From an uncultured Lachnospiraceae bacterium (GTDB taxonomy: Bacteria; Bacillota; Clostridia; Lachnospirales; Lachnospiraceae), in assembly GCA_951802115.1 (NCBI GenBank), contig CATOPL010000005.1, positions 1 through 64,000 of the forward strand: a DNA stretch of 64,000 nucleotides. The letters are read 5' to 3'. Numbering within the stretch: the stretch's first letter is position 1; each line of letters begins with the position of its first letter. The notes below the pieces were generated by a model. It had not been told where the DNA came from, searched no databases, and was given only the letters and a program-made list of their open reading frames with translations. A program made the translations under genes and the position numbers. Positions 4,511 through 64,000 of this stretch are shown one piece after another.

Positions 4511-4520
4511 AATCACTTCT

Positions 4521-36197: not shown

Positions 36198-39100
36198 TCA
36201 GTCTCCCACCACTTTCGTAACCTGCAGCACCACCTCGCTGAAATATCTGGGCTCGACTTCCCCCGTCAGGCACCGGTTTTCTTTTCGGAATGCACCGCTT
36301 CCGGGTACGTCTTCGGGCAGGCGGTAGAAAGAAAGCTGACGGACTGTCACCTCCTGGTTCTCGCAACCCACCGAACAGCCCGAGAACGTCAGTTCTGCAC
36401 CAAATGCCCCGTCCCTGCGGTAATAATTTTCAAAATGTCCCGCATCCATGGTCGGTCCCCGGAACCATCCTGCCTTCAGAAGCTGTCCGGACAAAGACAG
36501 ACCGTTCAGCGTCCTGTCCTCGAATCGGGCAAGAACCGTCTTATCTCTTTCTTCCTGCGTCACCCGGAAAACCGGACGGCACAGCTGTTCAAAGGGCTGG
36601 CTAATCTCATAATCCGAAAGCTGTTCCTTCCATGCCGCAAGTACTTCATCGGACAGCTCAAGGGGATGCACAAGGCCGATCTTTCCGGATTCCGGGAAAG
36701 GACAGGTTTCCTCTTCTTCGGTATTAAAGCTTCCATCCTCCATATACCGGAAAGTCCCCTGAAGCTCTGATCCCTCATAGACACCCCAGATCAGCCCCAT
36801 GGCAAAGGACTGCATGACCGGATTGTTCACAAACAGCGCCCGCCATTTCTCCGGTTCCCAGAAACGCGCCGCCAGCAGGGCCTGTTCCAGACGAAGCTTC
36901 TGGCTGGCAGTCACCTCTTTTAACTGTTTTTTCATCTGCCGGAAGGCCTGATTTGCAGACGCTGCTTTTTCCGGATCATCCTGTCTGCCGGGAGCGGGCA
37001 GATTCTTCAGACGCTTTCCGGTGCTGTCATAGATCTCTGCTTCCAGCGCCGCATTCAGGCGCACGGTAAAACTTCGGGGACCATAATCAAAGACCTGTTC
37101 CATCTTCCCGTCAAAACCCAGATCCGGCACCAGGCGGTCTTCCAGTTCTTCCCGGCTGATGCCAAGGGCTGTTGCCGCCTGCCGAAGCGCTTCTCCCGCT
37201 GCATTTTTTACCTGACGGAACTTGTATTTTCTTGACATCTGATCCACCAGACGCAGCGCCTCCGGACTTCCGTTCAAGGCAAGGGCGCGCACCGCCTCCG
37301 CCGCCATAGCCCCTCTTTGATGCTCTGCCCAGTCTTTGATCTGTCCGCAGAGCACCGGGATCACAGTCTGTCCGCCGTGTACGGACAAAGCATAGAGTAC
37401 CCAGCGTTTTTTTGCCTCCGCTCCCGCCGACAGCCAGCCTTCATACAACGCCCGCATATATCCGGAAAGCACTTCCGGTTCCAGAGGCGAGGCCAGCTTT
37501 TTTGCATCCTCGCTGAGCCCTGCAGGTTCCTGATCCGCATAGGCTGCCAGGATCGAAAGCAGATATTCTTTTGGAACAGTCTCCCCGTCCCTGCGATGCA
37601 CCTCCGGAAGCGTCAGGCTCTGGACCCACTCTACCTTTTTCTTCCGGCTTCCTCGGAAGATCTCTGCCGACAGCCGTTCCTCCATCCGTTTCGTCCGTCC
37701 GGACCCGTCCACATCCTTCGCTTCCTGTTCCAGCTCTTCTGCCAGCGCCGCCAAAGAAGCTGCCAGCTTTTGATTCTTCTCCCGGTCGCAGGCCGTTCTG
37801 ACAGCCTCCAGACAGGACGGGTCTCCCCATTCCCCTAAAAGCCAAACGGCGAATTCCCGTTCTTTTACTTTCTTTGATTCCAGAAACGCCAGCACTTCCG
37901 GTTTCCACTCCGGATGCTCCCGGCCGATCTCAAGAACTTTTGTACGTACCTGCTTTGTGCCGGTTCCCACACAGGAGAGAAACAGGTCCCGGTAACGGCC
38001 GCCCTGATGGGCCAGAATCTCAAGCCCCAGACAGCAGGCCGGACCGCTCCCCTCTCTTATGGTCCTGGTCATTCCCTCTTCCCAGCGCTCCATATCCTGT
38101 GCCGCCGCACACTCTGCCAGCGCTTTCGCACACCGTTCCAAGTACAACGCTTTCTCCTTTTTACTCAGATTCTCTCCCATGGCACTCAGGGCATCCATCT
38201 GATAAAAGACCGGAATGTGTTCTTCGGCAAAAAGGTCCAAAATTCCGCGGATCTGACGCGGATCACACAGCAGTTCCTCCGGCTTCCCGCCAAAAGCTTC
38301 CTCCTGAAACACCGGATAATATGCAAAATACCCTGCCATTTTCCGCAGCGCTTCCAGCACCATTCCCCTTCTGTACAGGGACGGTTCCTGCCGTTTCAGT
38401 TCAGAAAACCGCTGATGATTTTCCTTTTCCGCATACAGATCATTGCCCCATTCCTTTATATGGGGTTCCAGCACCTCTGCAGAGCAGGCGCCCAGCACAT
38501 ACTGCCTCGCATCCTCTTTTCCCGGACTGACCCGGGACACGATCTCGGACGCCAGCTTCTCCCGCCAGGTCGTCTCAAACTCGTCCTGAAGCTCCTGGCA
38601 ATATCCCGTATGACGTATGATTCTCATTAGCTCCCTGTATAGTCTGCTGTCCGCTTCCGCCGCCGCTTTTTTGACTCCTTCCGGACATCTGGACGCCATG
38701 CGCTCCACCGCTTTTGTGTAACCCAGATTCACACAGTACAGAACATAATCCTCATCCGGGATCGGCAGCATCTCTTCCATCGCCTTCATGCGGGCGTCAA
38801 ACCAGTCTTCTTCTGCGATTCTCATACAGGTTTCCAGCACCGGATTTCTTCCCTGGCGCCGCAGATTCATTCCCACAGATGCCCTGCCCGCCGTGTTGAC
38901 CGCCGCCATCATCCGCAGGATAATCTCAAAACGCAGGGAATGTTCCAGTGCCAGAAACGCACAGCCGGAGAGAAACCCGGTCTCCATGCTGCCCGACCGC
39001 CGTTCTTCATAAATGGACAGAATCCGATGGGGAAAGGGGGTATCCTTGCCTGCATTTTGGGCATAGGACTCCAGGGACACCAGTTCCTGCTTCTCAAACG

Positions 39101-39746
39101 CCGACAGATCCGGAAAAGAAGCGATCAGGCTCTCTTCCAGCTCCTTTACAATCATCGGCGCCGTACCTGGTTCTGTATGATGCAGATACATGGCCAGAAG
39201 GAGCATCCTTGTACTGCTCACCTTCCCGAACCGGGTACGATCATAGCAATACGCCGCGGCCCGCAAAAACAGGTCCGGATCCTCTGCCCCGGACTGACAC
39301 AGCGCTTTCACCTCTTCCGGTTTCCGCCAGTGAAGATATTGCACACACATCCCTGCACGAATCGCCGTCTTCTGCTCTTCGGCCTGGGTACCGCTCAGAA
39401 ACACCAGTGATCCTTCCAGTTCAGAAAGACAAGACGGCTGTTTAAAGTCGGTCAGCAGTATTCCCGCTGTAGACCCGCCCACGGCCGCCAGAAAACGCAT
39501 ACAGCGCCCAAACTCTTCTGTCTGTTTCTTTTTCCTTAGCCAGCCTGGATAATCCCCGTTTTCCCACAAGTAAGCGGGCATCGTCAGTTCCAGACTTTGA
39601 TGCACTACCAGAGAAAGAAGCCCTTCGTCCTCCGGCAGATCCATATCCAGATAACGTTCTGCAAGTTTTCGATTGGCTTTGAGCATGCCAATCGCCTTGA
39701 AAAATTTTTGTCGGATTGCTCCTCCCTCTGTATCTTTTATAATCAT
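36198..39746 (-). CDS. DUF4132 domain protein (copy 2)
   Basis: A 1182-residue, mostly helical protein. About 800 residues of HEAT-like helical repeats precede a conserved C-terminal DUF4132 region: LGISREELEDRLVPDLGFD near 860, FTVRLNAALEAEIYD near 890, GLIWGVYEGSELQGTFRYM near 1000, and DYEISQPFEQLCRPVF near 1070. E. coli MolR/YehI belong to the same broad family; the biochemical role is unknown. It is a paralog of the 40727-44188 gene, with colinear similarity over the whole length. The start at 39746 has a modest AAGGAA about 12 bases upstream. It is followed after 5 bases by the composite broken gene. Confidence 0.8.
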   Translation of the reverse strand: MIIKDTEGGAIRQKFFKAIGMLKANRKLAERYLDMDLPEDEGLLSLVVHQSLELTMPAYLWENGDYPGWLRKKKQTEEFGRCMRFLAAVGGSTAGILLTDFKQPSCLSELEGSLVFLSGTQAEEQKTAIRAGMCVQYLHWRKPEEVKALCQSGAEDPDLFLRAAAYCYDRTRFGKVSSTRMLLLAMYLHHTEPGTAPMIVKELEESLIASFPDLSAFEKQELVSLESYAQNAGKDTPFPHRILSIYEERRSGSMETGFLSGCAFLALEHSLRFEIILRMMAAVNTAGRASVGMNLRRQGRNPVLETCMRIAEEDWFDARMKAMEEMLPIPDEDYVLYCVNLGYTKAVERMASRCPEGVKKAAAEADSRLYRELMRIIRHTGYCQELQDEFETTWREKLASEIVSRVSPGKEDARQYVLGACSAEVLEPHIKEWGNDLYAEKENHQRFSELKRQEPSLYRRGMVLEALRKMAGYFAYYPVFQEEAFGGKPEELLCDPRQIRGILDLFAEEHIPVFYQMDALSAMGENLSKKEKALYLERCAKALAECAAAQDMERWEEGMTRTIREGSGPACCLGLEILAHQGGRYRDLFLSCVGTGTKQVRTKVLEIGREHPEWKPEVLAFLESKKVKEREFAVWLLGEWGDPSCLEAVRTACDREKNQKLAASLAALAEELEQEAKDVDGSGRTKRMEERLSAEIFRGSRKKKVEWVQSLTLPEVHRRDGETVPKEYLLSILAAYADQEPAGLSEDAKKLASPLEPEVLSGYMRALYEGWLSAGAEAKKRWVLYALSVHGGQTVIPVLCGQIKDWAEHQRGAMAAEAVRALALNGSPEALRLVDQMSRKYKFRQVKNAAGEALRQAATALGISREELEDRLVPDLGFDGKMEQVFDYGPRSFTVRLNAALEAEIYDSTGKRLKNLPAPGRQDDPEKAASANQAFRQMKKQLKEVTASQKLRLEQALLAARFWEPEKWRALFVNNPVMQSFAMGLIWGVYEGSELQGTFRYMEDGSFNTEEEETCPFPESGKIGLVHPLELSDEVLAAWKEQLSDYEISQPFEQLCRPVFRVTQEERDKTVLARFEDRTLNGLSLSGQLLKAGWFRGPTMDAGHFENYYRRDGAFGAELTFSGCSVGCENQEVTVRQLSFYRLPEDVPGSGAFRKENRCLTGEVEPRYFSEVVLQVTKVVGD

Positions 39747-40726: not shown

Positions 40727-43700
40727 TCACTGTTTATTTCCGGTCGCCTGTGCAAGTTGCAGCACGATCTCACTGAAATACCGGGGGCTGACTTCTCCTA
40801 ATATACCGTTTTCTTCCCGGCCCCTCTGGTCCGCATCTGTGCCCGGCCGGTAGAAGACGGCGTCATACACCACGACTTCCGTATTTTCGCCGGTGATGCC
40901 GCAGCCGGAGAAAGACAGCCTCACACCTGTTTTTCCATCTTCCCGGTAAAAGGTATCATATTCTCCGTTGTCTCCCACCGGCCCTTTATTCCAGCCAAAC
41001 CTGGTCAGCTTGCCGGAAAGCGACAGGGCATTCACCACATTTCCTTTAAAACGGGACAGTTCCATCCGGGACTGCTCTTCTTCGGTGGGACGAAAGATCG
41101 TACGGGCCAGCTGTTCAACAGGCTGTGTAATCTCATAATCCGAAAGCTGCTCTGCCCATGCCGCCCGCTCTTCTTCGGAGAGCTCCACCGGATGCACAAG
41201 CCCGATGGTCCCCTGTTCCGGAAATGCAAAAGGCTCTTCCTCCCGGGTGTTGAAACTACCGTCCTCCATATACCGAAAAGTCGCCTTTAACCTCCCGTCC
41301 TCATAGACGCCCCAGATCAGCCCCGCCGCAAACTGGTGCATAACCGGATTTTTCACAAAAAGCTCTTTCCAGCCGGCTGCCTGCCAGTACCTTCCGGCGA
41401 TCAGCGCCTGCTCAAGCCGAAGCTTCTGACCGGCTGCCACGGTCTTCAGCTGCTTTTTCAGCTGCTTAAACGCAAGGTTTGCCTCTTCTGCCTTCTCCGG
41501 GTCATCCTGCTTTTTGGGGGACGGCAGATTTTTTAACCGCTTTCCATCTTCGTCATACACTTCCGCTTCCAGAGACAAGGTCAGCCGGACCGTAAAGCAT
41601 CGGGAACCACAATCGAACATCCGTTCCATTCTTTCATCAAATCCCAGATCCGGCACAATCCGGTCCTCCAGATCTTCCCGGCTGATCCCAAGCTGCAAAG
41701 CCGCCCCGGCAAGCGCATCGGCCGCTCCTTTTTTTACCTGACGGTATTTGAACTTTCTGGAAATCTGATCCACCAGAAGAAGCGCGGCAGAGGAACCGTT
41801 CAGCGTGAGCGCCTTCACCGCCTCCACCGCCAGCGCACCCCGGAACTTCCCGGGCAGTTCTTTGATCTGCTGATGCAAAAGGGGAATCATTGCTTCCCCG
41901 CCGTGGATGGACGCCGCGTACAGAACCCATTTCTTCTTGGCCTCCGCTCCGGTCTCCAGCCAGCGGAAAAACAGATCCCGCATACATGCGGACAACTCAG
42001 CCTGTTCCAGCGCATCTGCCAGCCTCCCTGCATCCTTTGAGATACCCGGCACTTCCATAAATGCATAGCAGGCCATGATCGCCTTTAAATAATCCTCCGG
42101 CGCTTCCATACCGCCCTTTGTATGGATCTTTTCGTAAGGTTCCTGAAAGGCCCACTGTACCTTCTGTCTGCCGCCGTTTTTCAGGCAGTCTCCAGCCAGC
42201 TGTTCCAGATCCACCGTCTCCTGTTCTGCGCCCAGAAGCTTCTGCAGATATTCGGATATCTTTTTATTCTTTTCCTTCTGAAGCGCTTTTTCAAGCTCCG
42301 GCCGGTACTGCTCCACACCCCACTGTTTCAGTACCCACACTGCCATCTGACGCTCTTTCTGCTTTCTGGATGCGAGCATGGCTTTAATCTCCTGCTCCCA
42401 TTCTCTGTGTCCTCCGTACACGGACAGCAGGACCTGCTGCACCTGTCTGGAACCATCACCGGCGCAGGCAAGAAGCGCATTTTTATATTCCTGCCCATGA
42501 CGGTCCATAGTAAGGATACAGAAAATCCGCGTCATGGCAGCACCACTAAGAGCGACCTTTTTGTATTCCTCCCCCCACACGCTGATCCTCCGGTCCAGAG
42601 CCTCCACGCACTCCTTCTGAAAAGCGTCCTGGTCCTGCGCTTTATGGTAGCACTCATGGATACTGGCCAGAGTATCCAGCTGATAAGATACAGGAACCCG
42701 CTCATCCTGGAAGATCTGAAAAATACTTCCAATTTCCTGCACAGTCAAAAGCTCACTAAGGCCAAATTCCTCCAAACGGAACATATAAAACCGGAAATAG
42801 CTGCCGTGCATCAGAAGCCCTTCCATGGCCACCGCACGCCGATAGAGTTTCTGCATCTTTGGATCATCCCGCAGAAGTTCCAGCCGGTCATTCTTATATC
42901 CATAATAGCCGCTGGCATCTTTGCGCCACTCCTTTACGAAGGGCAAGACTTCCGAAAGCTCTGCTTTCCCGAGAAAATACTTCCGGGCAACCTCTTCATT
43001 GCTTTCAAAGTTAGTGACCAGTTCCTCTGCCGCCTTCTGCAGGTACTTCTCCTGCTCATAGATCTTCTCGTGCAGCGCCGGAGCCTGCCGCCTGGCCGTC
43101 TGAAGCAGATTGTCATACTGCCAGAGAGACAGACTTTCGGTCACTTCCGTAATCGCAGACGGATATTTGGTGAATACCATCTTCCAGATATCATCCAGCC
43201 GCTCCCGGATGCCCCACCGGGCCCAGTCTGCCGGAGAGATGGGAAGTTCTTCCAGCAAAAACTTCCGGTGCCGGTTAAACCAGTCAGCATCCGCCATATA
43301 ACGGCAGATGCCAGGAAAACAGCTTCTGCTTGCTTCCTGATCCGCCGCCGCCAGAAGCTTCAGTGCTGTCTGGAAAGACTCCCTGTGTCCAAGGGAGAGA
43401 TACGCGCATCCGGTCAGAAGGGCCAGCCGGTCCGCAGAACTTGTCCGGCCTCTTAAAATCTTCCGGATTTCTGCGGGAAACGGCATATCCCCATATGTAT
43501 GAAGAACATAGTCCTGAAGTTCTGACAGTTCTGCATCTGTCAGCGCATTACCTCCAAAAAGTTCCGGAAGTCTTTCAAGAAATCTCTGTTCCAGCCATCC
43601 GGACAGCGCCTCTGTCTGCTTATTTTTCACAGAGTCCAGACTCATACAGCACAGCCAGATCCCGACCAGCAGCATTTTCGGTGCATCTTCAGAGCCCCGG

Positions 43701-44188
43701 CAGAGCTCCACGGCCCGGATCAGAACCTCCGGATCTTTCCGCCCCACACTGAACAGTACGCTTAAGCGTCCCTGCTGCAGGGTATTAGCTTCATGGGCGT
43801 ACATCTCCGCCCAGAACGCCGCACGCTGTTCCTTTGTAAGCCACCGAAGAAGCCAGTTTTCATTTTTATATCGGACCAGCACACAGACCGCGGAAGAACC
43901 GCCTGCTGCCGCCACGAACTGCACATAGCGCCCAAGCAGCTCTTCTTCTTTTTCATCTCTGAGCGCCTGACACCAGTCCAGGCACGCCTCCTGCTCCAAA
44001 GCGCTGAGCAGCGAAAAGTCCTGGTACTCCATCTGTGCAAGAAGATCAGATGTTCCATTCACAGACAGATCCGGTCCCTGTGAGGACTCCAGATACCTTT
44101 TTGCAATTCTTCGGTTTTTTTCCGTCAGCTTCAGACTGTCCAAAGCGTCTGTCAGAAGCTGCGGCAGACAGTCGTTCTTGAAATTCAT
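40727..44188 (-). CDS. DUF4132 domain protein (copy 1)
   Basis: A 1153-residue helical-repeat protein, paralogous to the gene at 36198-39746. Matching landmarks occur in the same order: GYHREWEQEIKAMLASRK-type repeats, AEAKKKWVLYAASIHGGEAMIP near 770, LGISREDLEDRIVPDLGFD near 835, GLIWGVYEDGRLKATFRYM near 975, and DYEITQPVEQLARTIF near 1045. The DUF4132 part is the best conserved; no catalytic motif is apparent. ATG 44188 has AGGAGG seven bases upstream; an upstream in-frame ATG at 44236 lacks one. It is the first gene of a same-strand run with the 184-residue hypothetical gene and the second paralog. Confidence 0.8.
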   Translation of the reverse strand: MNFKNDCLPQLLTDALDSLKLTEKNRRIAKRYLESSQGPDLSVNGTSDLLAQMEYQDFSLLSALEQEACLDWCQALRDEKEEELLGRYVQFVAAAGGSSAVCVLVRYKNENWLLRWLTKEQRAAFWAEMYAHEANTLQQGRLSVLFSVGRKDPEVLIRAVELCRGSEDAPKMLLVGIWLCCMSLDSVKNKQTEALSGWLEQRFLERLPELFGGNALTDAELSELQDYVLHTYGDMPFPAEIRKILRGRTSSADRLALLTGCAYLSLGHRESFQTALKLLAAADQEASRSCFPGICRYMADADWFNRHRKFLLEELPISPADWARWGIRERLDDIWKMVFTKYPSAITEVTESLSLWQYDNLLQTARRQAPALHEKIYEQEKYLQKAAEELVTNFESNEEVARKYFLGKAELSEVLPFVKEWRKDASGYYGYKNDRLELLRDDPKMQKLYRRAVAMEGLLMHGSYFRFYMFRLEEFGLSELLTVQEIGSIFQIFQDERVPVSYQLDTLASIHECYHKAQDQDAFQKECVEALDRRISVWGEEYKKVALSGAAMTRIFCILTMDRHGQEYKNALLACAGDGSRQVQQVLLSVYGGHREWEQEIKAMLASRKQKERQMAVWVLKQWGVEQYRPELEKALQKEKNKKISEYLQKLLGAEQETVDLEQLAGDCLKNGGRQKVQWAFQEPYEKIHTKGGMEAPEDYLKAIMACYAFMEVPGISKDAGRLADALEQAELSACMRDLFFRWLETGAEAKKKWVLYAASIHGGEAMIPLLHQQIKELPGKFRGALAVEAVKALTLNGSSAALLLVDQISRKFKYRQVKKGAADALAGAALQLGISREDLEDRIVPDLGFDERMERMFDCGSRCFTVRLTLSLEAEVYDEDGKRLKNLPSPKKQDDPEKAEEANLAFKQLKKQLKTVAAGQKLRLEQALIAGRYWQAAGWKELFVKNPVMHQFAAGLIWGVYEDGRLKATFRYMEDGSFNTREEEPFAFPEQGTIGLVHPVELSEEERAAWAEQLSDYEITQPVEQLARTIFRPTEEEQSRMELSRFKGNVVNALSLSGKLTRFGWNKGPVGDNGEYDTFYREDGKTGVRLSFSGCGITGENTEVVVYDAVFYRPGTDADQRGREENGILGEVSPRYFSEIVLQLAQATGNKQ

Positions 44189-44386
44189 ATCTGTTCCTCC
44201 TAATATTAAAATCCCGACTTTTAAACATCTTACCAAAGTATTGAATTATACCTACCAATTTTTGTTGCTGTCGGCTCCATTATACCGTATTTCCAGGATC
44301 AGTAAAAGTCCTCGCGTAAAGAAACCGTTTTCCACATCAGGCCAGTGTACCGGAACCCCAGCCTTTCAGAAATAATTATAATTTTT

Positions 44387-51023: not shown

Positions 51024-52037
51024 TTATTCTGTCAGCGCATTCAGAAGATCCGGCGATACGTTCAGAGTACCGATCTTCCCTGCCTTGTCGCCCATCTCCA
51101 GAAATGCCCTGGCGATCAGCGACCGGCTGTCCATTCCACTGATGGCCAGCGCTTTCACAATCTCCTTATCCACCCCGGAAAAGGTTTTAAGCAGCGCCTC
51201 GGAATCATAGGCTTTCGCATCAGATTTTTTCTTTTCATTTTCTGTCTGCAGATCCACCAGACGGCAGTTCTCTTCTTCCAGACGAATCTCACTGGCGATT
51301 CTGCGCGCATCCAGCTCCGCCTGCTTTTCCTGCACCAGCCGTTTCATCTCCATCTCTTTTTCTCGTTTTTCCTTCTGCTTTTCCGCCACCCGGATCTCTG
51401 TGTTCAACTCATTTTCTTTCACAATCCGCTCCTGTTCAATGGCTGCATTCCTGCGTTTATAAATAGCGTCGTCCTGCTGTTTCAAGATTTCTTCTCTGGC
51501 CGCTGCCTCCAGTGCCTTTCTGGTATCGCTTCGCGCCAGAACACCCAAAATGGAAACGGACACCAGCTCCAGGCCGAAATCTTTCAGTCCCACATCCTCC
51601 CTCATTCTTTCCCGCAAAGCGCCGGCCAGCTCATCGGCGGATATGATCGCTTCCCGCACCGTCTTACCGCTGATGAATTTGGTGATACATACCTTTACAA
51701 GATTCAGTACCCGCCTGGACATTTTCTGCCTGGCCTCCGTGAGTACCGCCGCATATTCCTTTTTTCTTTTCCAGGAAAAATCCACCATCTGGGACGCCCG
51801 TTTATAATCGGTGATGATATAAGAAATATCCCCCTGCACGCTGACGCTCTGAAAGTCCGCGGTCATCAGTTCATCAAAAGTAAAACCTGTGTCAAAAGCC
51901 GTAGCCGGGATCACGGTCATGCTTGTAGTCATCGTATTATAGAAAAACGACAGGCCCGGCCCTTTCTGTACAACTCTTCCTTTTCTTACCTTGATGACAT
52001 ATTCTGTCGGCTCAAACTTCTTGTACGCAATACCCAT
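51024..52037 (-). CDS. SPFH/Band 7 domain protein
   Basis: A 337-residue protein. Residues about 1-170 form an SPFH (stomatin/prohibitin) domain: VRKGRVVQKGPGLSFFYN near 18-35, then DISYIITDYKRA near 70 and ILGVLARSDTRKALEAAA near 163-180. A charged coiled coil (about 180-260, rich in Glu, Lys and Arg) follows, then a C-terminal helical tail. Unlike typical flotillins it has no N-terminal transmembrane helix. AAGGAGG precedes the ATG. The promoter (TTGACA-17-TATCAT) carries a 17-base perfect palindrome. It is paired with a NAD-kinase-like gene, a partnership of unknown meaning. Confidence 0.85.
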   Translation of the reverse strand: MGIAYKKFEPTEYVIKVRKGRVVQKGPGLSFFYNTMTTSMTVIPATAFDTGFTFDELMTADFQSVSVQGDISYIITDYKRASQMVDFSWKRKKEYAAVLTEARQKMSRRVLNLVKVCITKFISGKTVREAIISADELAGALRERMREDVGLKDFGLELVSVSILGVLARSDTRKALEAAAREEILKQQDDAIYKRRNAAIEQERIVKENELNTEIRVAEKQKEKREKEMEMKRLVQEKQAELDARRIASEIRLEEENCRLVDLQTENEKKKSDAKAYDSEALLKTFSGVDKEIVKALAISGMDSRSLIARAFLEMGDKAGKIGTLNVSPDLLNALTE

Positions 52038-55583: not shown

Positions 55584-56783
55584 TCAGATATTTGAAAAAT
55601 CTCTGTCGGCATCCGGAAGACTCCCGCCCAGGTACTGCACCGCAATCCGGTTTTCCGGTTCCGTGTCAAAAAGATACAAAACCATTATAAACAGATATTC
55701 AAGCGGTTTCATCAAAACATACACTGCATCCGCCGTCCAGCGGCTGCGAATATGTCTGGCAACAGGATAACCGCAGGTATCATAAAACCGGCGCAGCTGT
55801 CTGTGTACGCCCGGAAGCCGCTCAGACAGGAGGTCTTCAAACGCATTCGCTACCAGAAGCTGCCTGTTCACTACAATCCGATGTCCATGCCGCTCTCCCA
55901 TCCGCAGAGGTTTTACGAGTTTTGGATGACCGCCTGCGGCTACCGTACAGAGATAATGCTCATCATAAAGCACATTCGGCGGAGCTTTCTGCAGAGACAG
56001 CGTCCAGTCGCTGGTCTGCGTCCATGCCTGTATAATACTGTCCGGTTTCTGTCCGAACAGTGTCAGAACAGCCACCAGAATTCCAAGAAGCGGCCACATA
56101 AGTACAAATGCAACCCACAACCACCTGCGGGCCTGCTCATGCTGCGAACAGACCTGACGCACCGTCTTTCCGAAAATCAGAAGCAGGTTGAACGGATAAA
56201 CTGCCAGCAAAAAATCAAAGCTATCTCCCAGCAGCTGAATAATAAAAAGGATACAAAGTCCAATTCCCAGATACATGGCGGACATGGCAAGAACCGTCAA
56301 AAGCGGAGGCTGTTTTCTGAGCGGAATAAAGCGCAAAATCAGATATCCTAAACATGCTGTCACACCCACAGCAATCAACGTTGGAAATGTCCATGTTGCA
56401 ATGGGTGTATGAACTTCACTATTTACCAGCGTCTCTGTCCAGTCAGCCATACGGATATCCGAGATCGCCAGATAACAGCAGACACAGACTGCTCCCCAGA
56501 TGATCGTAACTGCGTCTGTGATCCTTGCCACGTTGATACGCTCATTTTGATAGTGAAGTTTACAGAGCTGCCACAAATTCTGGAAAGTAAGCACTGCCGG
56601 ATAAAACAGAAAAATGCCAATCACACTTCCGACCAAAAGCAAAGATGACAACACACTCAAACCTTCAGAACTGTAGAAAAGTATAAACTGAGGCAACACC
56701 AATGCAATCCCCGCCAGGACAGTTCCGATAACGATACACAAATTAGGATGTTTTCTGCAACTGGTCTGTATTTTTTTCAGCAT
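55584..56783 (-). CDS. Polytopic membrane protein (possibly DUF6688)
   Basis: A 399-residue membrane protein with about seven hydrophobic segments in the first 240 residues, starting near 17-38 and 43-66. A soluble C-terminal domain of about 140 residues follows, containing HYLCTVAAGGHPKLVKPLRM, HGHRIVVNRQLLVANAFEDLL and CGYPVARHIRSRW. The C-terminal part matches what I recall of family DUF6688, whose function is unknown. The repeated His, Arg and Asn residues could form a binding or catalytic site, but nothing is established. GGAGG precedes the ATG. It follows the pseudo-ABC gene by about 100 bases on the same strand. Confidence 0.68.
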   Translation of the reverse strand: MLKKIQTSCRKHPNLCIVIGTVLAGIALVLPQFILFYSSEGLSVLSSLLLVGSVIGIFLFYPAVLTFQNLWQLCKLHYQNERINVARITDAVTIIWGAVCVCCYLAISDIRMADWTETLVNSEVHTPIATWTFPTLIAVGVTACLGYLILRFIPLRKQPPLLTVLAMSAMYLGIGLCILFIIQLLGDSFDFLLAVYPFNLLLIFGKTVRQVCSQHEQARRWLWVAFVLMWPLLGILVAVLTLFGQKPDSIIQAWTQTSDWTLSLQKAPPNVLYDEHYLCTVAAGGHPKLVKPLRMGERHGHRIVVNRQLLVANAFEDLLSERLPGVHRQLRRFYDTCGYPVARHIRSRWTADAVYVLMKPLEYLFIMVLYLFDTEPENRIAVQYLGGSLPDADRDFSNI

Positions 56784-56881: not shown

Positions 56882-58318
56882 TTAATGTTCAATCTTATCT
56901 ACAATCACACGCCGTCCCTCCAGTTCCTCCACCTCCTGAATATTGGAGGTAATTACCAGCACCGCAACTCCTCTTTGCAGCAGAGCCTGAATCATCTCTT
57001 TTGCGATGATACGGACACTGTCAATATCCACAGCGGCAAACGGCCTCACACAGATCAGCATTTTGGGTGCAAATAACAGCCATTTGCAGAATACCGCCCG
57101 GTATGCAATCTTAAGCGGAAGATCCTTGATCTTCTCACTGAAATATTTTTTCTCAATAAAACGCTCCAGCATCATTTCAATGCTGTTCTGATATTTTCTC
57201 TGCATCCATAAGCCGGAAATTTTCCTGCTCAGGCACAGACACAGATTATCCATCAGCGTCATATCAGCAACCAGATCATTTTCCAGCGGCTGTTCTTCCA
57301 TAATACCAATATCGTTTTCCAGCATTCTCCATGTCTCATGATAGGGAATCTTCCTGCCCTTCAGAAAGATTGTTCCTTTCAGCGGCTGCTCTTCCCCTTT
57401 CAAAAGCGCTGTCAGCGCCCGGCATACATAATCGTCCCTGCACCGCATGACAACAAATTCTCCCTGCCGGATGGAAAAAGACAAGTCCTTGACAATTCCG
57501 GTTTCCACATGCATAAACTCTAGAAGCAGTGCCCGATTTCCCGAATCAGGAAGCGGATTGAAAATCATCGGGTCTTCCCTGAATTTCAGATAATATTCGT
57601 GAACATCCCTGTTATTCATCTGCATAAATGTCAGCTTTTGAATCGTGTCTACTCCATAATAACCGGAAATTCGTCCGTCGTCTACTACATAATAGTCATC
57701 TGCACATTTTAAAACCTGTTCTTCAAAGGAATCCAGCATTAAAAAGGAATATCCTTCCTCCTTCATCTTATGAATCACTCCCTGAAGCTGTTCAAACCCG
57801 GCGTCGTCCAGCCGGTTTGTAAGCTGATATAAAACAATCAGTCTCTGTTTTCTGACATAGGCCTGCATTACCTCAACCAGAACCATTCCATAAAAACTCA
57901 GTTCATCTCCTTTATGTTCCACCTCCAGGCATATATCAAATTTTTCTTCCAGGCATCTGGACATCTGTTGATAATACTGATCTCTTTTGAATATAAAATT
58001 TTCCGAAACATACAGACCGATATTCTCGCCGACAGTCATATAATCATACAGCTTTTTCTCTCTTCCAACCACAGCAATATGAGAACGAACCGTCTTTCTC
58101 CATTCTTTTTCTTCAACCCTGCGATCGAACAGAAAAATCCTGCCCTCATCAAAAAAAACCTTTCCCTCCAGAATTGTGGACAACAGCTTTTTTTCATCCG
58201 CATTCAGAAAGATCATACCGGAAGAATGTCCCAGATAACACTGGATATGCAGATTTTTCAGAGAAAATGTTCTCTCTTTTTTTACTCCTCCTTCAATTCG
58301 CAGTATTTCTCTTTTCAT
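56882..58318 (-). CDS. Catalytically dead RbsA-like double ABC protein
   Basis: A 478-residue protein laid out as two ABC ATPase halves, like the sugar importer ATPase RbsA, but with every catalytic motif erased. In the first half the Walker A position reads LNADEKKLLSTIL, the Walker B DE is YQ (LIVLYQLTNRLDDAGF, near 170-185), and there is no LSGGQ. In the second half the Walker A position reads RCRDDYVCRALTALL (near 292-306) and the Walker B DEP is VRP (PKMLICVRPFAAVDID, near 430). Flanking secondary structure is retained, e.g. MTVGENIGLYV and GVAVLVITSNIQEVEEL. It cannot hydrolyse ATP normally. The ATG overlaps the histidine kinase stop, so it is probably a signalling partner. Confidence 0.82.
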   Translation of the reverse strand: MKREILRIEGGVKKERTFSLKNLHIQCYLGHSSGMIFLNADEKKLLSTILEGKVFFDEGRIFLFDRRVEEKEWRKTVRSHIAVVGREKKLYDYMTVGENIGLYVSENFIFKRDQYYQQMSRCLEEKFDICLEVEHKGDELSFYGMVLVEVMQAYVRKQRLIVLYQLTNRLDDAGFEQLQGVIHKMKEEGYSFLMLDSFEEQVLKCADDYYVVDDGRISGYYGVDTIQKLTFMQMNNRDVHEYYLKFREDPMIFNPLPDSGNRALLLEFMHVETGIVKDLSFSIRQGEFVVMRCRDDYVCRALTALLKGEEQPLKGTIFLKGRKIPYHETWRMLENDIGIMEEQPLENDLVADMTLMDNLCLCLSRKISGLWMQRKYQNSIEMMLERFIEKKYFSEKIKDLPLKIAYRAVFCKWLLFAPKMLICVRPFAAVDIDSVRIIAKEMIQALLQRGVAVLVITSNIQEVEELEGRRVIVDKIEH

Positions 58319-59316
58319 ATATTCTCCAATTCTGTCAGCGATGTCAGCTTAGGAAGTGTATAGATCACCTGCGTTCCAAATTCTTCAACGCTGAACAGCT
58401 TGATCCCGTAATACTCTCCAAAAAGCAGTTTAATTCTCCGCGACACATTGGCAAGCGCGATCCCATGATGTCCTTCTGAAACAATAATTCTGTCCGGATT
58501 AGCCAGATTTTCATTGATCTTTTGTACCATCTCTTTTGCAATTCCTACCCCGTCGTCAGATACTGTGATCAGCAGACGACTGTCTGTCAGTTCAATCTTA
58601 ATAAAGATTTTACCTCCTGCTCCTCTGCCTTCCAGTCCATGATAGATCGCATTTTCTACAATCGGCTGAAGGATCAGTTTTGGCACCATCAGTTTCAGAG
58701 CCTCTTCACCTGCATCTTCATGGATCTGTTCCAGAGCGATCCGGTCTCCAAACCGGTATTTCTGAATAATAAAATAATTGTCCACATGATCCAGTTCCCG
58801 CTCCAGAGGCACAAGCGTCTCCGGTTCCGATATTGTATACCGAAAAAAGGTCGACAATGCTTCTGTCGTTTCCGCAATCGTTTCCACTCCCTCACAAAGT
58901 GCATCTCCGCGGATCGCTTCCAGGGTATTGTAAAGAAAATGCGGGTTAATCTGCGTCTGCAGCGCCAGATACTCCGCATAGGTTCCCTGATAATATCGGT
59001 TCTGTTCCTTCAGTTCCCTCAACAGCTCTCCGACAATCTGACAAAATTCTGCCGATAGCCAGTTTTCCTCCTCCTCCAGCAGCTTTGATTCATTTGACTC
59101 CAGCTCTGAAAGCATCCGCCGCTCCCGCTTTTTCTGTTTTTTTCTTACAGTCATCAGCAGAAAGACATACACGAATCCAAATACTGACGACAGCAGGAAA
59201 ACCCAGTCTCCAGAATATACCGCCAAACCGGTCATCACCAGATTCTGAAATATATAAAACAGGCTGAACGCACAGATAAGCCGGTCAGCATTCCACTTTC
59301 TGATTTTTTTACCCAT
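58315..59316 (-). CDS. YesM/LytS-type sensor histidine kinase with minimal sensor
   Basis: A 333-residue kinase. Two hydrophobic helices (about residues 13-34 and 38-57) are separated by only a few residues, so no extracytoplasmic sensing domain exists. A coiled-coil linker (about 58-110) follows, then the His_kinase domain with LQTQINPHFLYNTLEAIRGD (phospho-accepting His near 126). The HATPase domain has PIVENAIYHGLEG (N box, near 215) and DDGVGIAKEM. ATG 59316 was chosen; a TTG five codons upstream and weak GTGG signals make this uncertain. It is encoded between its response regulator and the pseudo-ABC protein and coupled to the latter by an ATGA overlap. Confidence 0.9.
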   Translation of the reverse strand: MGKKIRKWNADRLICAFSLFYIFQNLVMTGLAVYSGDWVFLLSSVFGFVYVFLLMTVRKKQKKRERRMLSELESNESKLLEEEENWLSAEFCQIVGELLRELKEQNRYYQGTYAEYLALQTQINPHFLYNTLEAIRGDALCEGVETIAETTEALSTFFRYTISEPETLVPLERELDHVDNYFIIQKYRFGDRIALEQIHEDAGEEALKLMVPKLILQPIVENAIYHGLEGRGAGGKIFIKIELTDSRLLITVSDDGVGIAKEMVQKINENLANPDRIIVSEGHHGIALANVSRRIKLLFGEYYGIKLFSVEEFGTQVIYTLPKLTSLTELENI

Positions 59317-59334
59317 ATCCACTATCCACAAAGA

Positions 59335-60960
59335 TTACTTGTACATTTTTCTGAATTTATTAGGGCTTAGTCCAAGCACCTTCTTAAAAATTCTGGAAAA
59401 ATATTTAACGTCGCTGTAACCAACCAGTTCTGCAATCTCATTTACAGAATCATCCGTTTTCAGCAAACATTCTTTGGCATGATCAATCCGAAGCTGCGTC
59501 AGATACTCCAGAAAATTCATCGAAGTTTCTTTTTTAAATAAGTTCGAAAAATATGACGCGTTAAATCCCACATAAGCGCTGACTTCTTCCAGAGTCAGAG
59601 CCCTGAAAAAATTTTCCTGCATATACTCCTTCGCCTGCAGAATTGGTCTGCGCTCTTCCCGTTTTTTATTTTCTGCCCAGTTTTTCAGACTTTGAATCAT
59701 TAAATTCCCCAGACCTTCAAAGAGAATACTGATCGAAGCTCCCAGTAAAAATAAATGTTCTGCTCTGATTTTAAACTCTTCCCGTCCAATATGAATCCTG
59801 TTTACTTCCAGACTGTAAAAATAATCTTCCACGAACTTCCAGTAAACCAATTTTACCATACCTGCGTTCAGGCCAGAAATATGAAGCAGTTTTTCACTGC
59901 ATTCGTGAATACAGTTCTGTATTCTCGGATAATCCAGGAGTTCGATTCCTCTTTGAATATCCTTGCGTATATCAAGACTGTACAGTAACTCCGGCGTACA
60001 TTCTGCACTGTAGCTGCTCTGATACCACAAAACGGTCTCTGTCTCCGACAGAATATAGTTCGCAGCCGCTTCAACCGCCTGATCCATACTCCGAAAAAGC
60101 TGCCCGACCGAGGCCATTCGTTCTCCCAGTCCAAAGCAAACCCGAATCCCATGGAAAACCTCCCGCCATCCCATAACTTTAATTTGTACATGGTTCATCA
60201 GACGGTTCAACTGCATATCTGTGATCTCCGGCGCATTCAGCGCAGCATAAATCACCCCTTGATTAACGCTGATCACACACTCCGAAAACTGGCCTGCGAA
60301 ATCCTGACTGAGAATGTTTTCCACCTTCGCAACTGCCATGGAAAATACAGGACTTTCCGGCTCACAGTCTGCCACCAGAACTTTTACCGCAATCCCCATA
60401 AACTCTCCCGGTACAAAGTTGCAGGAATATTCATGATTTACCGCTTCCAGAGTATCTGTATCCATATCTTTCAGAGCCTGACCTTTCTTCCTGAAATATT
60501 CTGTAAACAGACTCTCTTTGATTTTGCTGGCATAATGGTCCATAAACTGTTCCAGATGTTCTTTCTCCGCTTCCACTTTCCTGGTCAATTCATATTTTTC
60601 TATGATTTTTTTGACCGCCTCTGTCAGTTCTTTTTTCTTCAGGGGTTTCAGAAGATAGTCCTCCACCCCGTATTTAATTGCATGCTGCGCATATTCGAAC
60701 TTGCTGTATCCGCTCACGACAATGAAATAGGTTTCCGGCTTTTCTTTTTTTACATTGCGTATCAGAGTCAGACCATTCTGTTCCGGCATACGAATATCCA
60801 CAATCACAATATCCGGACTCTTTTCCATGATTACCTGAAAGGCGCTGTTTCCGTCATAAGCCTCGCCAATGATCTCTACTCCAAGAGAATTCCAGTCCAC
60901 CAGATAGCGAATCAGCTTGCATACCCTCATTTCGTCATCAGCTATCAGTAATTTTAACAT
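59335..60960 (-). CDS. YesN-type response regulator with AraC DNA-binding domain
   Basis: A 541-residue regulator. The receiver domain is residues 1-120 (LLIADDEMRVCKLIRYLV; phospho-acceptor Asp near 55 in IVIVDIRMPEQNG; Lys in DYLLKPLKKKEL near 107). A central region of about 300 residues follows, and two AraC-type HTH motifs occupy the last 100 residues: LTLEEVSAYVGFNASYFSNL and DSVNEIAELVGYSDVKYFSRI. YesN-like regulators usually activate neighbouring carbohydrate uptake and catabolism genes. It lies 38 bases after the isomerase gene and 18 before the kinase start, so it is probably part of the tetrose operon transcript. Confidence 0.93.
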   Translation of the reverse strand: MLKLLIADDEMRVCKLIRYLVDWNSLGVEIIGEAYDGNSAFQVIMEKSPDIVIVDIRMPEQNGLTLIRNVKKEKPETYFIVVSGYSKFEYAQHAIKYGVEDYLLKPLKKKELTEAVKKIIEKYELTRKVEAEKEHLEQFMDHYASKIKESLFTEYFRKKGQALKDMDTDTLEAVNHEYSCNFVPGEFMGIAVKVLVADCEPESPVFSMAVAKVENILSQDFAGQFSECVISVNQGVIYAALNAPEITDMQLNRLMNHVQIKVMGWREVFHGIRVCFGLGERMASVGQLFRSMDQAVEAAANYILSETETVLWYQSSYSAECTPELLYSLDIRKDIQRGIELLDYPRIQNCIHECSEKLLHISGLNAGMVKLVYWKFVEDYFYSLEVNRIHIGREEFKIRAEHLFLLGASISILFEGLGNLMIQSLKNWAENKKREERRPILQAKEYMQENFFRALTLEEVSAYVGFNASYFSNLFKKETSMNFLEYLTQLRIDHAKECLLKTDDSVNEIAELVGYSDVKYFSRIFKKVLGLSPNKFRKMYK

Positions 60961-60998: not shown

Positions 60999-61793
60999 CT
61001 ATTTTGACGCCTGGTTTTTATATGCCTCCATGGATTCCCGAATCAGACGATCAAACGCAGAAGCTTCCCAGGCTGCACGTCCGACATATAAACCGTCAAC
61101 ATATTTTCGGGTGATCAGTTGACAGGTATTTCCCGGATTCACACTCCCTCCATAAAGTACCGGTATGGTCCGTCCATCTTCTCCAAATATTTCTGCAAGC
61201 ACACTTTTGATCTCTTTATGCATCTTCTCCGCGTAATCCGCCGTTGCAGGAGTGCCGTTCACACCAATCGACCAGACAGGCTCATATGCCACCCGAAGGC
61301 TGGGAATTTTCTCCCTCTCCACTCCTGAAAATCCGATTTTAAGCTGTGTACGAAGGACTTCTGCGCTGACGCCGTAGGCTTTGTCTTCTGCGGTTTCCCC
61401 GACGCAGAGCAGAGCGGTAAATCCATGCTTCAGAGCCGCCTTTACTTTCTGATTCTCCTCTGTATCCGTCTCTCTGAATACATGCCTCCTTTCTGAATGA
61501 CCGATCATAACCAAATCAAGATTCAGCTCTTTTAGCATAACCGGAGAGATGTCGCCGGTAAACTGTCCTTCGTCCTCCCAGTTCATATTCTGTGCACCGA
61601 GCCTGACCACATGATTGTCCGTACTCTTTACCGCACTCTCCAGAGAAGTATAGGACGGAAGAACGAACAGCTCTATCTCGTCTCTGCTGATGTCTCTGGT
61701 CAGCTCCTCCAGCTGCTGCAGATAATCTACGGTCATCCGTATCGTTTTATACATCTTAAGGTTCGTGCCAAAATATAATTTCTTTGTTTTCAT
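60999..61793 (-). CDS. Triosephosphate isomerase-like protein, probable erythrulose-1-phosphate isomerase
   Basis: A 264-residue TIM-barrel isomerase. All catalytic residues are kept: Asn11 and Lys13 (GTNLKMYKT), His99 (IGHSERRHVF) and Glu171 (VAYEPVWSIG). The phosphate loops GVNGTPAT and YGGSVNPGNT are also present. NLK in place of the usual NWK, a longer chain and the operon context (dhaK, dhaL, rpiB) argue that it is not the glycolytic enzyme. In erythritol catabolism a TIM homolog (LerI/EryH type) isomerises L-erythrulose 1-phosphate to D-erythrulose 4-phosphate; I propose that role. ATG 61793 has AAGGAC at 7 bases; the upstream frame is not conserved. Confidence 0.82.
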   Translation of the reverse strand: MKTKKLYFGTNLKMYKTIRMTVDYLQQLEELTRDISRDEIELFVLPSYTSLESAVKSTDNHVVRLGAQNMNWEDEGQFTGDISPVMLKELNLDLVMIGHSERRHVFRETDTEENQKVKAALKHGFTALLCVGETAEDKAYGVSAEVLRTQLKIGFSGVEREKIPSLRVAYEPVWSIGVNGTPATADYAEKMHKEIKSVLAEIFGEDGRTIPVLYGGSVNPGNTCQLITRKYVDGLYVGRAAWEASAFDRLIRESMEAYKNQASK

Positions 61794-61852
61794 AGTTAAA
61801 GTCCTTTCTATTATATCACAGGTCCACATGTTTGTCTTTTTCCAAATATTTC

Positions 61853-61909: not shown

Positions 61910-62374
61910 TTATGACTGTTTAAAATATTTTTTCTCAATCTCACAGATTGCTGCAACTTTTGGAGTGGAGCTTCCGTCTTTAAACTCCAGCCCAATCCAT
62001 TCGTTCACAATCTTCTTGGCCAGCTCCACACCGACGATCCGCTCTCCCAGGCACAAAATATTACCGTTATTACTGAGTATTGACCGCTCCGCTGCAAAAT
62101 TGTCATGACATACAGCTGCCCGGATACCAGGATATTTATTCGCCGTCATTGCCATTCCAATCCCGGTACCGCAAATCAGAATTCCGCGTTTTTCATAACC
62201 GCTCTCCTGGATTTTACTGCATACCCGCTCTGCTATGTATGGATAATACGTAGGATCTTCTGCACTGTCGCAGCCCACATTCTCCACTTCCACACCTTTG
62301 CTTTTCAAAAAATCAATGATGACATTTTTCAGGTTTACCGCTGCATTATCACATCCGATTACAATGGATCTCAT
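61910..62374 (-). CDS. RpiB/LacAB-family isomerase, probable erythrulose-4-phosphate isomerase
   Basis: A 154-residue RpiB-fold isomerase. The N-terminus VIGCDNAAVNLKNVIIDFLKSKG matches RpiB, but with Asn where most family members have His after the Asp. The active-site Cys is present in GILICGTGIGMAMTANKYPGIRA (Cys68). NNGNILCLGERIVG near 106-120 and the closing helix are also typical. In tetrose catabolism an RpiB homolog (DerI) converts D-erythrulose 4-phosphate to D-erythrose 4-phosphate, and the neighbours here fit that. Its ATG overlaps the dhaL stop by one base (TGATG). Confidence 0.85.
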   Translation of the reverse strand: MRSIVIGCDNAAVNLKNVIIDFLKSKGVEVENVGCDSAEDPTYYPYIAERVCSKIQESGYEKRGILICGTGIGMAMTANKYPGIRAAVCHDNFAAERSILSNNGNILCLGERIVGVELAKKIVNEWIGLEFKDGSSTPKVAAICEIEKKYFKQS

Positions 62375-63015
62375 CAGGCTTCCTCCTTTTCCACAAACTC
62401 CCTCATAGAGCGAAAAATAATCGCTACAGAAGTAGCTCCTGCATCCTGATGCCCGATTGCACGCTCAAGAAGAGATTTGGCACGCCCGTATTTTGCAAGC
62501 TGATTTTTTGTATTTTCCACCCCCTGATATGCTGCTTTCTCTGCCTCTTTCAGCATTTCCAGAAGTCCTTTTTCACTGCTTGCCTCCATGGCTTCCACCG
62601 CAGGTTCCAGCGCATCCACCATTGTTTTATCTCCTACGGAAGCCTTTCCCCTCTCTTTGATTGCCTCCAGACTCTTCCTCTCCATCGCCGCCAGATCACC
62701 GGCTGTCAACTCTGTTTTCGGTTCCATTCCTTTAGCGCCGGCCAGATACAGACTCCCGAAAATCACGCCGGACGCCCCACCCATGGACATGAGCATCGCT
62801 TTTCCTGCGGTTGCAAATACATCATAGACGCTATCAAAGGAAGCCTGACCTTCCAGTTTTGTCTTTGCTTTCTGCATACCACCCGCCATGCCGATCCCGT
62901 GATCGCCATCCCCGATTGCACTGTCGATTTCTGTCAGATATGGCTTGTTCTCTATGATTTTGTCCGCCACATAAATCAGCATTTCTTTTGCTTTTTCAAT
63001 CGAAATTGTCTCCAT
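62374..63015 (-). CDS. dhaL: Dihydroxyacetone kinase-type subunit DhaL (nucleotide-binding)
   Basis: A 213-residue all-helical ADP/ATP-binding subunit of a dihydroxyacetone-type kinase. The magnesium-binding motif DSAIGDGDHGIGMAGG (three Asp, near residues 28-42) is intact. GGASGVIFGSLYLAGAKG lies near 80-97, ASVGDKTMVDALEPA near 125-139, and GHQDAGATSVAIIFRSM near the end. Encoded separately from DhaK. Two adjacent ATGs exist; the second (63015) is 7 bases from AAGGAGG. The start region overlaps the dhaK stop. Context suggests phosphorylation of erythrulose rather than dihydroxyacetone; that is inference. Confidence 0.9.
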   Translation of the reverse strand: METISIEKAKEMLIYVADKIIENKPYLTEIDSAIGDGDHGIGMAGGMQKAKTKLEGQASFDSVYDVFATAGKAMLMSMGGASGVIFGSLYLAGAKGMEPKTELTAGDLAAMERKSLEAIKERGKASVGDKTMVDALEPAVEAMEASSEKGLLEMLKEAEKAAYQGVENTKNQLAKYGRAKSLLERAIGHQDAGATSVAIIFRSMREFVEKEEA

Positions 63016-64000
63016 CATCTCGCCTCCTTGGAATAATAAGGACAATAGCAGGGCATGTCATAATATTTCTTTAATTCCGGGTCCACTTTCATGATGGTAA
63101 TGGAAAATCCGCCCATTTCCTGACAGGTGCAAAAGCTGTTGAGGTCGGAATCATATACCCTGACCCCTTTTTCATCCAGAAGTTCCCGAAGCTTTCTGTA
63201 AACAATCGCCAGCTCAAGAATTGTAGTAGAGCCAAGTCCGTTTACCAGCACGCAGACCTCTTCTCCTGCTTCCAGGGGCATATCTTTCAACAGATTGGTA
63301 AACAGAGTCTCTGTCAGCTCGTCTGCCGGTTTCATCGTTGTTCTCTGGATTCCCGGTTCTCCGTGCAGTCCCATTCCGTATTCAATTTCTTTTTCTCCCA
63401 GTTCAAAAGTTGGCTTCTCCAGTCCGGGAATCATTCCGGGGGAAGTCGCCACCCCGATCGTCCTGAGCTGGTCACGCGCCTTTTCCGTAATCCTTTTTAC
63501 TTCCTCCAGGTCTGCTCCGCTGTCGCACGCCGCACCTGCAATCTTCATTACAAACACATCGCCTGCAATTCCTCTCCGGTCGGATGTTCTTTCAGCCGGC
63601 GCCGATGCACAGTCATCCCATACACGCACATGAGCGGTCTTGATGCCGTCGTCATTCAGTATCTCTTCCCCCATGTCAAAATTCAGATTATCTCCTGCAT
63701 AATTTCCATACACAAACAGGACTCCATGTCCGTCTTCCACCGCTTTTGCCGTCTCGTAAATGGTATTCGGATCAGGGGAGGCGAAAATATTTCCGCATGC
63801 CGCCGCGTCTGCAAGTCCTTTTCCGACAAAACCGCTGAACAGAGGTTCATGGCCTGAACCGCCTCCCACAACCAGAGACACCTTACCCTTTCTGCGTTCT
63901 TTCAACAGAACTCCGTTTACTTCCGGATGTTTCTCATAATATTTCTCGTATGCTTTCACATACCCTTCCATCATTTCAGATACTACCTGTTCCGCATCAT
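63015..64000 (-). CDS. dhaK: Dihydroxyacetone kinase-type subunit DhaK (partial)
   Basis: Substrate-binding subunit; about 328 codons are present and only the first few residues lie beyond the right edge (the visible start reads DAEQVVSEMMEGYVKAYEK, the normal DhaK N-terminus). The phosphate and substrate loop GGGSGHEPLFSGFVG, the LFVYGNYAGDNLNFDMG segment, and the covalent-binding His in YGMGLHGEPGIQR are all intact. VNGLGSTTILELAI lies near 245. The DhaK His forms a hemiaminal with a keto substrate such as dihydroxyacetone or erythrulose. It is translationally coupled to dhaL and is the first visible gene of the tetrose-like operon. Confidence 0.92.
   Translation of the reverse strand, partial: DAEQVVSEMMEGYVKAYEKYYEKHPEVNGVLLKERRKGKVSLVVGGGSGHEPLFSGFVGKGLADAAACGNIFASPDPNTIYETAKAVEDGHGVLFVYGNYAGDNLNFDMGEEILNDDGIKTAHVRVWDDCASAPAERTSDRRGIAGDVFVMKIAGAACDSGADLEEVKRITEKARDQLRTIGVATSPGMIPGLEKPTFELGEKEIEYGMGLHGEPGIQRTTMKPADELTETLFTNLLKDMPLEAGEEVCVLVNGLGSTTILELAIVYRKLRELLDEKGVRVYDSDLNSFCTCQEMGGFSITIMKVDPELKKYYDMPCYCPYYSKEAR

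Follow-up and report, generated by a model that had tools for sequence, protein, structure and literature searches.

The 64,000-nucleotide (nt) stretch analysed here (the window), positions 1 to 64,000 of contig CATOPL010000005.1 from an uncultured Lachnospiraceae bacterium, encodes on its minus strand a degenerate relative of the sugar-importer ATPase RbsA, i.e. a tandem pseudo-ATP-binding cassette (ABC) protein of 478 amino acid residues (pABC; 56882..58318), together with a YesM/LytS-type histidine kinase (58315..59331) and a YesN-type response regulator (59335..60960). This trio is a widespread and conserved three-gene system, encountered in numerous relatives of gut Lachnospiraceae and thus extending beyond the single-locus observation of the initial annotation of this DNA. 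Since an ATPase lacking its ATP-burning parts adjoins a kinase with almost no outer sensor, pABC probably reports the activity of an importer to that kinase. It is tentatively read here, with slightly less than even confidence, as a non-hydrolysing paralog of an importer ATPase that would act as the third component of a transporter-linked two-component system, docking on the importer and relaying its state to the kinase. The features that the sequences establish are the dead ATP sites, the fixed linkage, the anatomy of the kinase, purifying selection, the association with an importer and the co-divergence with it.

Concerning the ATPase-like protein itself, the RbsA-like two-domain layout noted in the initial annotation is borne out by profile comparison, the pABC family aligning with the RbsA profile over 481 columns (hhalign 100%, E 8e-70) as two ABC domains in one full-length chain. 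The window protein passes the Pfam model ABC_tran (38 bits, cut-off 25), and the matches of pABC to the NCBIfam models of YtfR, XylG, AraG and RbsA are nearly full length, albeit far under their cut-offs (best 109 bits vs 850). Both ATP sites of the window protein are destroyed, as had been claimed. In the N-terminal half, the P-loop GENGAGKST is replaced by FLNADEKKL, the Walker B motif MDEPT by LYQLT, and the His of the H-loop is lost; one of the six checked residues is kept in this half, the Walker A Lys column still being occupied by a Lys. In the C-terminal half, GLMGAGRTE is gone, the signature LSGGNQQ reads LPLKIAY and the Walker B FDEP reads CVRP. The same motifs are intact in three neighbouring RbsA proteins of the same alignment. 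Across the 75 pABC proteins collected, 0–5 of eight canonical residues are left in the N-terminal half (at most two in 58/75) and 0–1 of seven in the C-terminal half (none in 63/75), whereas all eight are present in 93/93 RbsA proteins and all seven in 82/93; neither full set is kept in any pABC (0/75). The expectation that Walker motifs would be missing from the homologs stands in that no complete site occurs anywhere among the 75, but not in its strict form: the divergent members L151 and L211 have a complete N-terminal P-loop, L178 keeps GKS and DE, and the Walker A Lys column is occupied by Lys in 24/75 proteins, that of the window included. The loss is thus graded at the N site and general at the C site.

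In the evolutionary tree all 75 pABC proteins form a single clade apart from the 93 RbsA sequences (support 1.0), the deepest branch order within it being weak (0.40–0.41). The ratio of nonsynonymous to synonymous substitutions (dN/dS) amounts to 0.04–0.18 in eight of 12 close pairs—those for which it was computable—and indicates that pABC is under purifying selection. The two most conserved of its 438 15-residue segments, 90–104 and 347–361, lie right after the two Q-loops, and the Asn following each Q-loop is retained in 73/75 and 75/75 proteins; it is here that the coupling helix of the permease fits in ABC transporters of solved structure. Further conserved patches comprise residues 1–15, 58–72 and 375–389. 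The four segments most degraded in comparison with RbsA are the N-terminal P-loop and the C-terminal P-loop, Walker B and signature. Residues conserved in pABC outside the RbsA consensus, scored like the retention of RbsA residues in 70/75 members after five divergent ones had been left out, include E4, R7, L90, F192, F427 and R436, among which E4, R7, F192, F427 and R436 are candidates for contact with the kinase. A search for a solved RbsA-type structure at E 1e-30 yielded only chains of the ABCB1/ABCB4/pgp-1 type (29 sequences).

The 75 pABC loci, partly from close relatives, were obtained after removing two duplicates, L204 (on the contig of L136) and L216 (on that of L126), and they do not include L150, L198, L199 and L203, which were fetched as candidates and turned out to be ordinary RbsA. 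With a four-member profile, matches at E 1e-66 or better were found at 39 places in 36/397 genomes of the family; 38 of these places, i.e. all except the window, were fetched, with pABC in 37 and an ordinary RbsA in one (L150). A 41-row profile revealed members at 348 bits or more in 14/392 genomes of the order, several of them already present in the family sample, and the searches of the class and the phylum gave matches in 15/391 and 5/299 genomes, the window's own included, with two and one ordinary RbsA on the map, respectively (L198, L199 and L203). It should be pointed out that the counts for family, order, class and phylum are lower bounds, because the scoring was limited to a few candidates in each genome. 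A peptide-pattern search of genome contigs for pABC matched 20 stretches, none of them confirmed, and the profile searches did find members. Further pABC genes, seen in the kinase-similarity scan described below, come from the named culture Muricomes intestini DSM 29489 (L204) and from assemblies whose titles give Tepidanaerobacter, Treponema, Herbinix, Lachnospiraceae and others. Trios are also found in assemblies titled with the names of other phyla, namely L215 (a Holosporaceae metagenome-assembled genome) and L206 (a Treponema one), where transfer and mis-binning are both possible.

The kinase gene is located immediately upstream of that of pABC in 74/75 loci, and the order regulator, kinase, pABC is observed in 72/75. 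The three-gene arrangement foreseen for homologs is therefore real and the linkage to two-component genes clearly conserved; a chance neighbourhood was rejected on the same count of 74/75. The order within the trio had been given wrongly, the regulator having been placed after the kinase, whereas its gene lies upstream and opens the trio, transcription running on the minus strand from regulator to kinase to pABC. The overlap of the pABC and kinase genes was described correctly: in the window, the pABC start codon and the kinase stop codon share 4 nt (ATGA), with a GGAG ribosome site in front. Over the 74 linked loci, the two frames overlap in 49 and are at most 25 nt apart in 71, the commonest gap being −4 (23/74); the gaps follow a first-start-codon rule, on which the large negative ones depend. 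The three loci without the full trio comprise L119 (contig edge), L126 (kinase in broken frames) and L189, where pABC is separated. In the latter genome (G1054; L189 and L288), another contig carries regulator, kinase, RbsA, RbsC and RbsB in succession with the place of pABC empty. The L189 pABC gene itself stands alone between isoleucyl-tRNA-synthetase-like and peptidase-like genes, a natural split of the trio. As for the importer, the fetched stretch of 64/75 loci contains an ordinary RbsA, defined by more than 400 bits and 350 residues, which means that a two-component pair adjoins a sugar ABC importer there, as in three-component systems. This RbsA is the next downstream gene on the same strand in 31/75, a count from which the weak matches of L188 (162 residues, cut off by the end of a contig) and L209 (68 bits) are left out. 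In four loci (L122 at 3416–5260, L127, L183 and L194) the importer solute-binding proteins beside the trio are about 600–620 residues long, that of L122 combining two periplasmic-binding domains within a single chain (Peripla_BP_1 at 56–294 and Peripla_BP_4 at 347–599).

The kinase of the window exhibits PF06580 and HATPase domains (HATPase_c) and two hydrophobic cores at residues 18–34 and 44–60; its start is probably the ATG at 59316 (333 residues) rather than the TTG at 59331. The conserved His and the N and G boxes are present in this YesM/LytS type according to a 40-row alignment, and the genome of the window contains one short kinase of the pABC-linked type and one pABC. The earlier description of the kinase, i.e. 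YesM type, two helices in the membrane and hardly any loop outside, proved valid wherever it was measured: two transmembrane (TM) cores were found in all 72 pABC-linked kinases measured (out of 74, the L126 fragment and L209 with its 283 residues being left out), with a median gap of 10 and a largest gap of 26 residues, so that a large extracytoplasmic sensor between the helices is absent from 72/72. A scan for similar kinases, best 80 of 590 named loci, gave 12 loci with pABC and 68 without, the latter serving as controls. At least two TM cores were detected in 63 of the 66 control kinases measured, and their largest gap has a median of 257 residues, the smallest being 31. The kinases of this best-80 set are 283–361 residues long at 11 of the 12 pABC loci and 369–721 residues at the 68 others; at the twelfth, L216, the kinase is split between two frames. 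Because its query was built from pABC-linked kinases, the scan depends on the kinase type. A control kinase is directly followed by a gene of the RbsB type in 19/68 loci, in 18 of which RbsA is found in the stretch; this agrees with the known three-component systems that use a solute-binding protein as accessory. One kinase family, beside one importer family, is thus accompanied either by an importer paralog outside the cell together with a large sensor, or by a paralog inside the cell together with almost none. One control, L238, possesses a short kinase (369 residues, inter-TM gap 31) with no pABC in the stretch and is the sole control near the short type.

The co-divergence was evaluated by mirror-tree analysis in those loci in which all the needed genes are present, L126 and L209 excluded, i.e. 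59/75 for the correlations within the trio and 56/75 for the importer tests. The distance matrices of the three signalling genes correlate with one another at 0.90–0.91, the partial correlations being 0.45 and 0.43 for pABC with kinase and regulator, respectively, and 0.48 for kinase with regulator. When the other two signalling genes are controlled, the partial correlation with the RbsC distances amounts to 0.57 for pABC, −0.06 for the kinase and −0.16 for the regulator, the maximum of 300 permutations being 0.25; pABC takes the first place in 400/400 subsamples. This ordering survives a control for GC content, and it holds both where the importer is adjacent (32 loci) and where it is not (24 loci, with the kinase reaching up to 0.14). 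The value for pABC is 0.51 inside and 0.41 outside the largest clade, and 0.43 if pABC is cut to 100 columns. pABC alone of the three signalling genes thus tracks the divergence of the importer once the other two are controlled.

Three loci deserve separate mention. In L148 and L213 a gene of the RbsC type overlaps the end of the pABC gene by 4 nt, and the same locus also encodes an importer equipped with an RbsA and an RbsC of its own. Among 106 RbsC sequences with a median tip length of 0.18, those of L213 and L148 have the longest (2.17) and the seventh longest (1.07) tips. In L138, the genes of RbsB and RbsC come next after that of pABC, and no ordinary RbsA occurs in the stretch. At all three loci pABC thus occupies, beside RbsC or RbsB-RbsC, the position of an RbsA. 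The three loci, although only three, fit a pair of pABC and permease. The strongly diverged RbsC-type permease gene at the end of pABC in L213 (10095–11003) may represent a pseudo-permease.

Under the preferred reading, an RbsA paralog would have kept the two-domain fold and the conserved segments adjacent to the Q-loops while losing ATP hydrolysis; it would dock on the importer complex or, most likely, on its RbsC-type permease and let the YesM-type kinase with its short loop know whether that importer is loaded or cycling. Phosphorylated by this kinase, the YesN-type regulator would activate the operon for import and catabolism, acting at a site that precedes rbsA. In this chain, the docking on the permease, the signalling to the kinase, the positive sign of control and the promoter target are inferred. 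With regard to the site, a direct repeat TYCMAAAGAWT with a period of 21 nt occurs upstream of rbsA or rbsB in part of the loci. In the operon of the window it reads ATCCAAAGAAT/CCCCAAAGAGA, starting 107 nt ahead of the rbsA start, at about 68898–68929 of the contig, and directly upstream of a TTGATA-17-TAATAT pair read by eye. Outside the source set and its near relatives, a score of at least 18/22 is reached in 3/26 loci at the period of 21, compared with 0/104 at four other periods (Fisher's test, p = 0.007) and with 0/28 controls (p = 0.10). A k-mer enrichment analysis of the regions upstream of the importers gave nothing clear. The repeat is only suggestive as a binding site of the regulator, and in view of these mixed statistics, the control of rbsA by the YesN-type regulator is plausible only.

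Several results weigh against the docking and relay just outlined. The co-divergence of pABC is about equal with RbsC (0.57), RbsA (0.53) and RbsB (0.55), and hence it names the importer, not a subunit; when all six genes are modelled, the remainder is 0.18–0.29 for RbsC, 0.09–0.24 for RbsA and −0.09 to 0.04 for RbsB. Within pABC, the importer signal is 0.47–0.49 at positions 90–133 and equally high at 179–223 and 450–475. Around the segment after the C-half Q-loop (326–388) it drops to 0.12–0.18, the kinase signal there being 0.21–0.33. All segments of RbsC give 0.38–0.60, and no localisation of an importer contact in pABC or RbsC was obtained by this sliding-window approach. The post-Q segment of the C-terminal half, moreover, retains RbsA residues at a fraction of 0.20, i.e. 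at the average rate (0.21; N-terminal half 0.36), so that its conservation is in part specific to pABC or dictated by structure. No ordinary RbsA lies within the fetched stretch of 11/75 loci. Finally, the repeat reaches the score of 18/22 in a minority of loci (11/37 in the source set and near relatives, the 3/26 others and 0/28 controls mentioned above), and the Mann–Whitney comparison of independent and control loci gives p = 0.14. The docking on a sugar permease proposed in the initial annotation has indirect support only: the conservation behind the Q-loops, the co-divergence and the loci L148, L213 and L138 speak for it, the low importer signal after the C-half Q-loop against it.

The main rival explanation, unlikely on the present evidence yet to be reckoned with, takes pABC for a sensor of a ligand in the cytosol, which would bind a sugar phosphate or a nucleotide in its degenerate ABC fold and control the kinase directly, with no contact to the permease. 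An obligate linkage to the kinase would be equally expected in that case, the residues outside the RbsA consensus (E4, R7, L90, F192, F427 and R436) could form a new pocket or a kinase contact, sugar-phosphate intermediates are made by the window operon as far as its enzymes suggest, and the importer signal in pABC is not confined to both grooves. Such a sensor would, however, leave aside that the independent importer signal is carried by pABC and not by the kinase or the regulator, that the most conserved pABC segments sit behind the Q-loops, and that the gene overlaps that of RbsC in L148 and L213.

It is improbable that pABC is a regulator of transport itself, capping the permease as a non-productive ATPase and throttling import, with the cotranscription with the kinase serving expression only. 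The RbsA layout and the conserved post-Q-loop segments would be kept under this explanation, too, but the linkage is first to the kinase gene (74/75) and second to the importer (64/75), and the co-divergence of pABC with kinase and regulator is nearly as strong as that between those two. An unusual binding of ATP, at least at the N site, making pABC a nucleotide-gated switch on the kinase, seems very improbable: the P-loops of L151 and L211, the GKS and DE of L178 and the Lys found in 24/75 proteins would agree with it, against which stand the single residue kept of six in the window protein and the extent of loss in the family, 58/75 with at most two of eight N-half residues and 63/75 with none of seven in the C-terminal half. 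A decaying duplicate or functionless passenger, as the lost catalytic motifs and the high divergence (mean p-distance 0.70) might suggest, is scarcely credible and was rejected in view of the dN/dS of 0.04–0.18 in 8/12 pairs, the intact single clade that spans several families of the phylum, the fixed position and the conserved residues of its own.

The gene run of the window that contains the trio begins with an ordinary RbsA-RbsC-RbsB importer just outside it. Zinc alcohol dehydrogenase, RbsB, RbsC and an RbsA with intact motifs, named from their open reading frames and later matches, are encoded beyond the window, upstream, up to contig position 68822. The regulator (receiver domain PF00072 and AraC-type helix-turn-helix, PF12833 and PF00165) is preceded, in the same direction on the minus strand, by a triosephosphate isomerase (TpiA-type) paralog (60999..61829; PF00121), an RpiB/LacAB-type sugar-phosphate isomerase (61910..62374; PF02502), a DhaL-type dihydroxyacetone kinase subunit (62374..63045; PF02734, TIGR02365 above cut-off) and a DhaK-type kinase subunit (63015..63998; PF02733), the last being cut by the window end and running on to contig position 64091. 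This enzyme set resembles tetritol/tetrulose pathways; the D-erythrulose-4-phosphate isomerase model matches the RpiB protein with 150 bits, below its cut-off of 240, and a tetritol/tetrulose-type substrate of importer and operon is a guess. Promoter-like sites between 56600 and 62500 number 10 vs 10.8 in shuffles. Terminator-like sites in the same region number 9 vs 3.5, several of them within genes. A DUF6688 protein gene (55584–56783) lies on the same strand directly downstream of pABC. Farther away, DUF4132 is found in two adjoining large proteins of 1182 and 1169 residues (36198–39746 and 40727–44236), and an SPFH/Band 7 domain protein is encoded at 51024–52037.

With respect to known systems, MalK is a working importer ATPase that acts on the transcription factor MalT. 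Both MalK-MalT and the proposed reading of pABC involve an importer ATPase subunit in gene regulation, pABC differing as a dedicated paralog with dead sites that would be tied to a histidine kinase. RbsA, XylG, AraG and YtfR share with pABC the near-full-length homology and the tandem ABC layout, but not the dead sites and the separate clade. Three-component systems with a solute-binding protein as accessory include XylFII-LytS-YesN. Another one is CuaDSR of Ruminiclostridium cellulolyticum (PMC10384115). Like the pABC trio, they place a paralog of an importer subunit beside two-component genes and those of a sugar ABC importer; their accessory is, however, an outside solute-binding protein and their kinase has an outer domain, whereas in the pABC system the accessory is an ATPase paralog inside the cell and the kinase has hardly any loop outside. 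In the Bce modules (BceAB-BceRS), a kinase that likewise has no outside sensing domain is linked to an ABC transporter and, according to two accounts, reports the transporter state by a proposed flux-sensing mechanism (PMC10314905, PMC7828314). The sensing partner there is a working antimicrobial-peptide transporter, the permease BceB of which is contacted directly by the kinase BceS, and no dedicated dead ATPase is named in the passages cited (PMC10314905, PMC7828314); the pABC trio goes with an RbsABC-type importer and has a dead, linked ATPase. By analogy, the pABC system would work like both the Bce modules and the solute-binding-protein three-component systems, belonging to neither.

No such system was found described by title or abstract in open-licence PubMed Central papers, a scope outside which most subscription papers and all preprints fall. 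It is possible, if somewhat doubtful, that the trio represents a previously undescribed signalling class of single origin, spread over several families of the class and, going by assembly names, also found in a Treponema, in which a non-catalytic importer-ATPase adaptor reads the state of a sugar permease from inside and drives a near-sensorless kinase, and which in at least one lineage (L213) pairs with its own diverged permease paralog as a pseudo-importer sensor. If this is true, importer subunits would have been recruited as sensor accessories for one kinase family from both sides of the membrane, and pABC would be a natural separation of the permease contact of an ABC ATPase from catalysis. 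The combination of a dead RbsA and a short YesM-type kinase would then be a sequence mark that should help to match regulators to sugar importers, and the sensing of transport state, so far a matter of antimicrobial-peptide transporters, would also include the ordinary uptake of sugars in Lachnospiraceae and their relatives.

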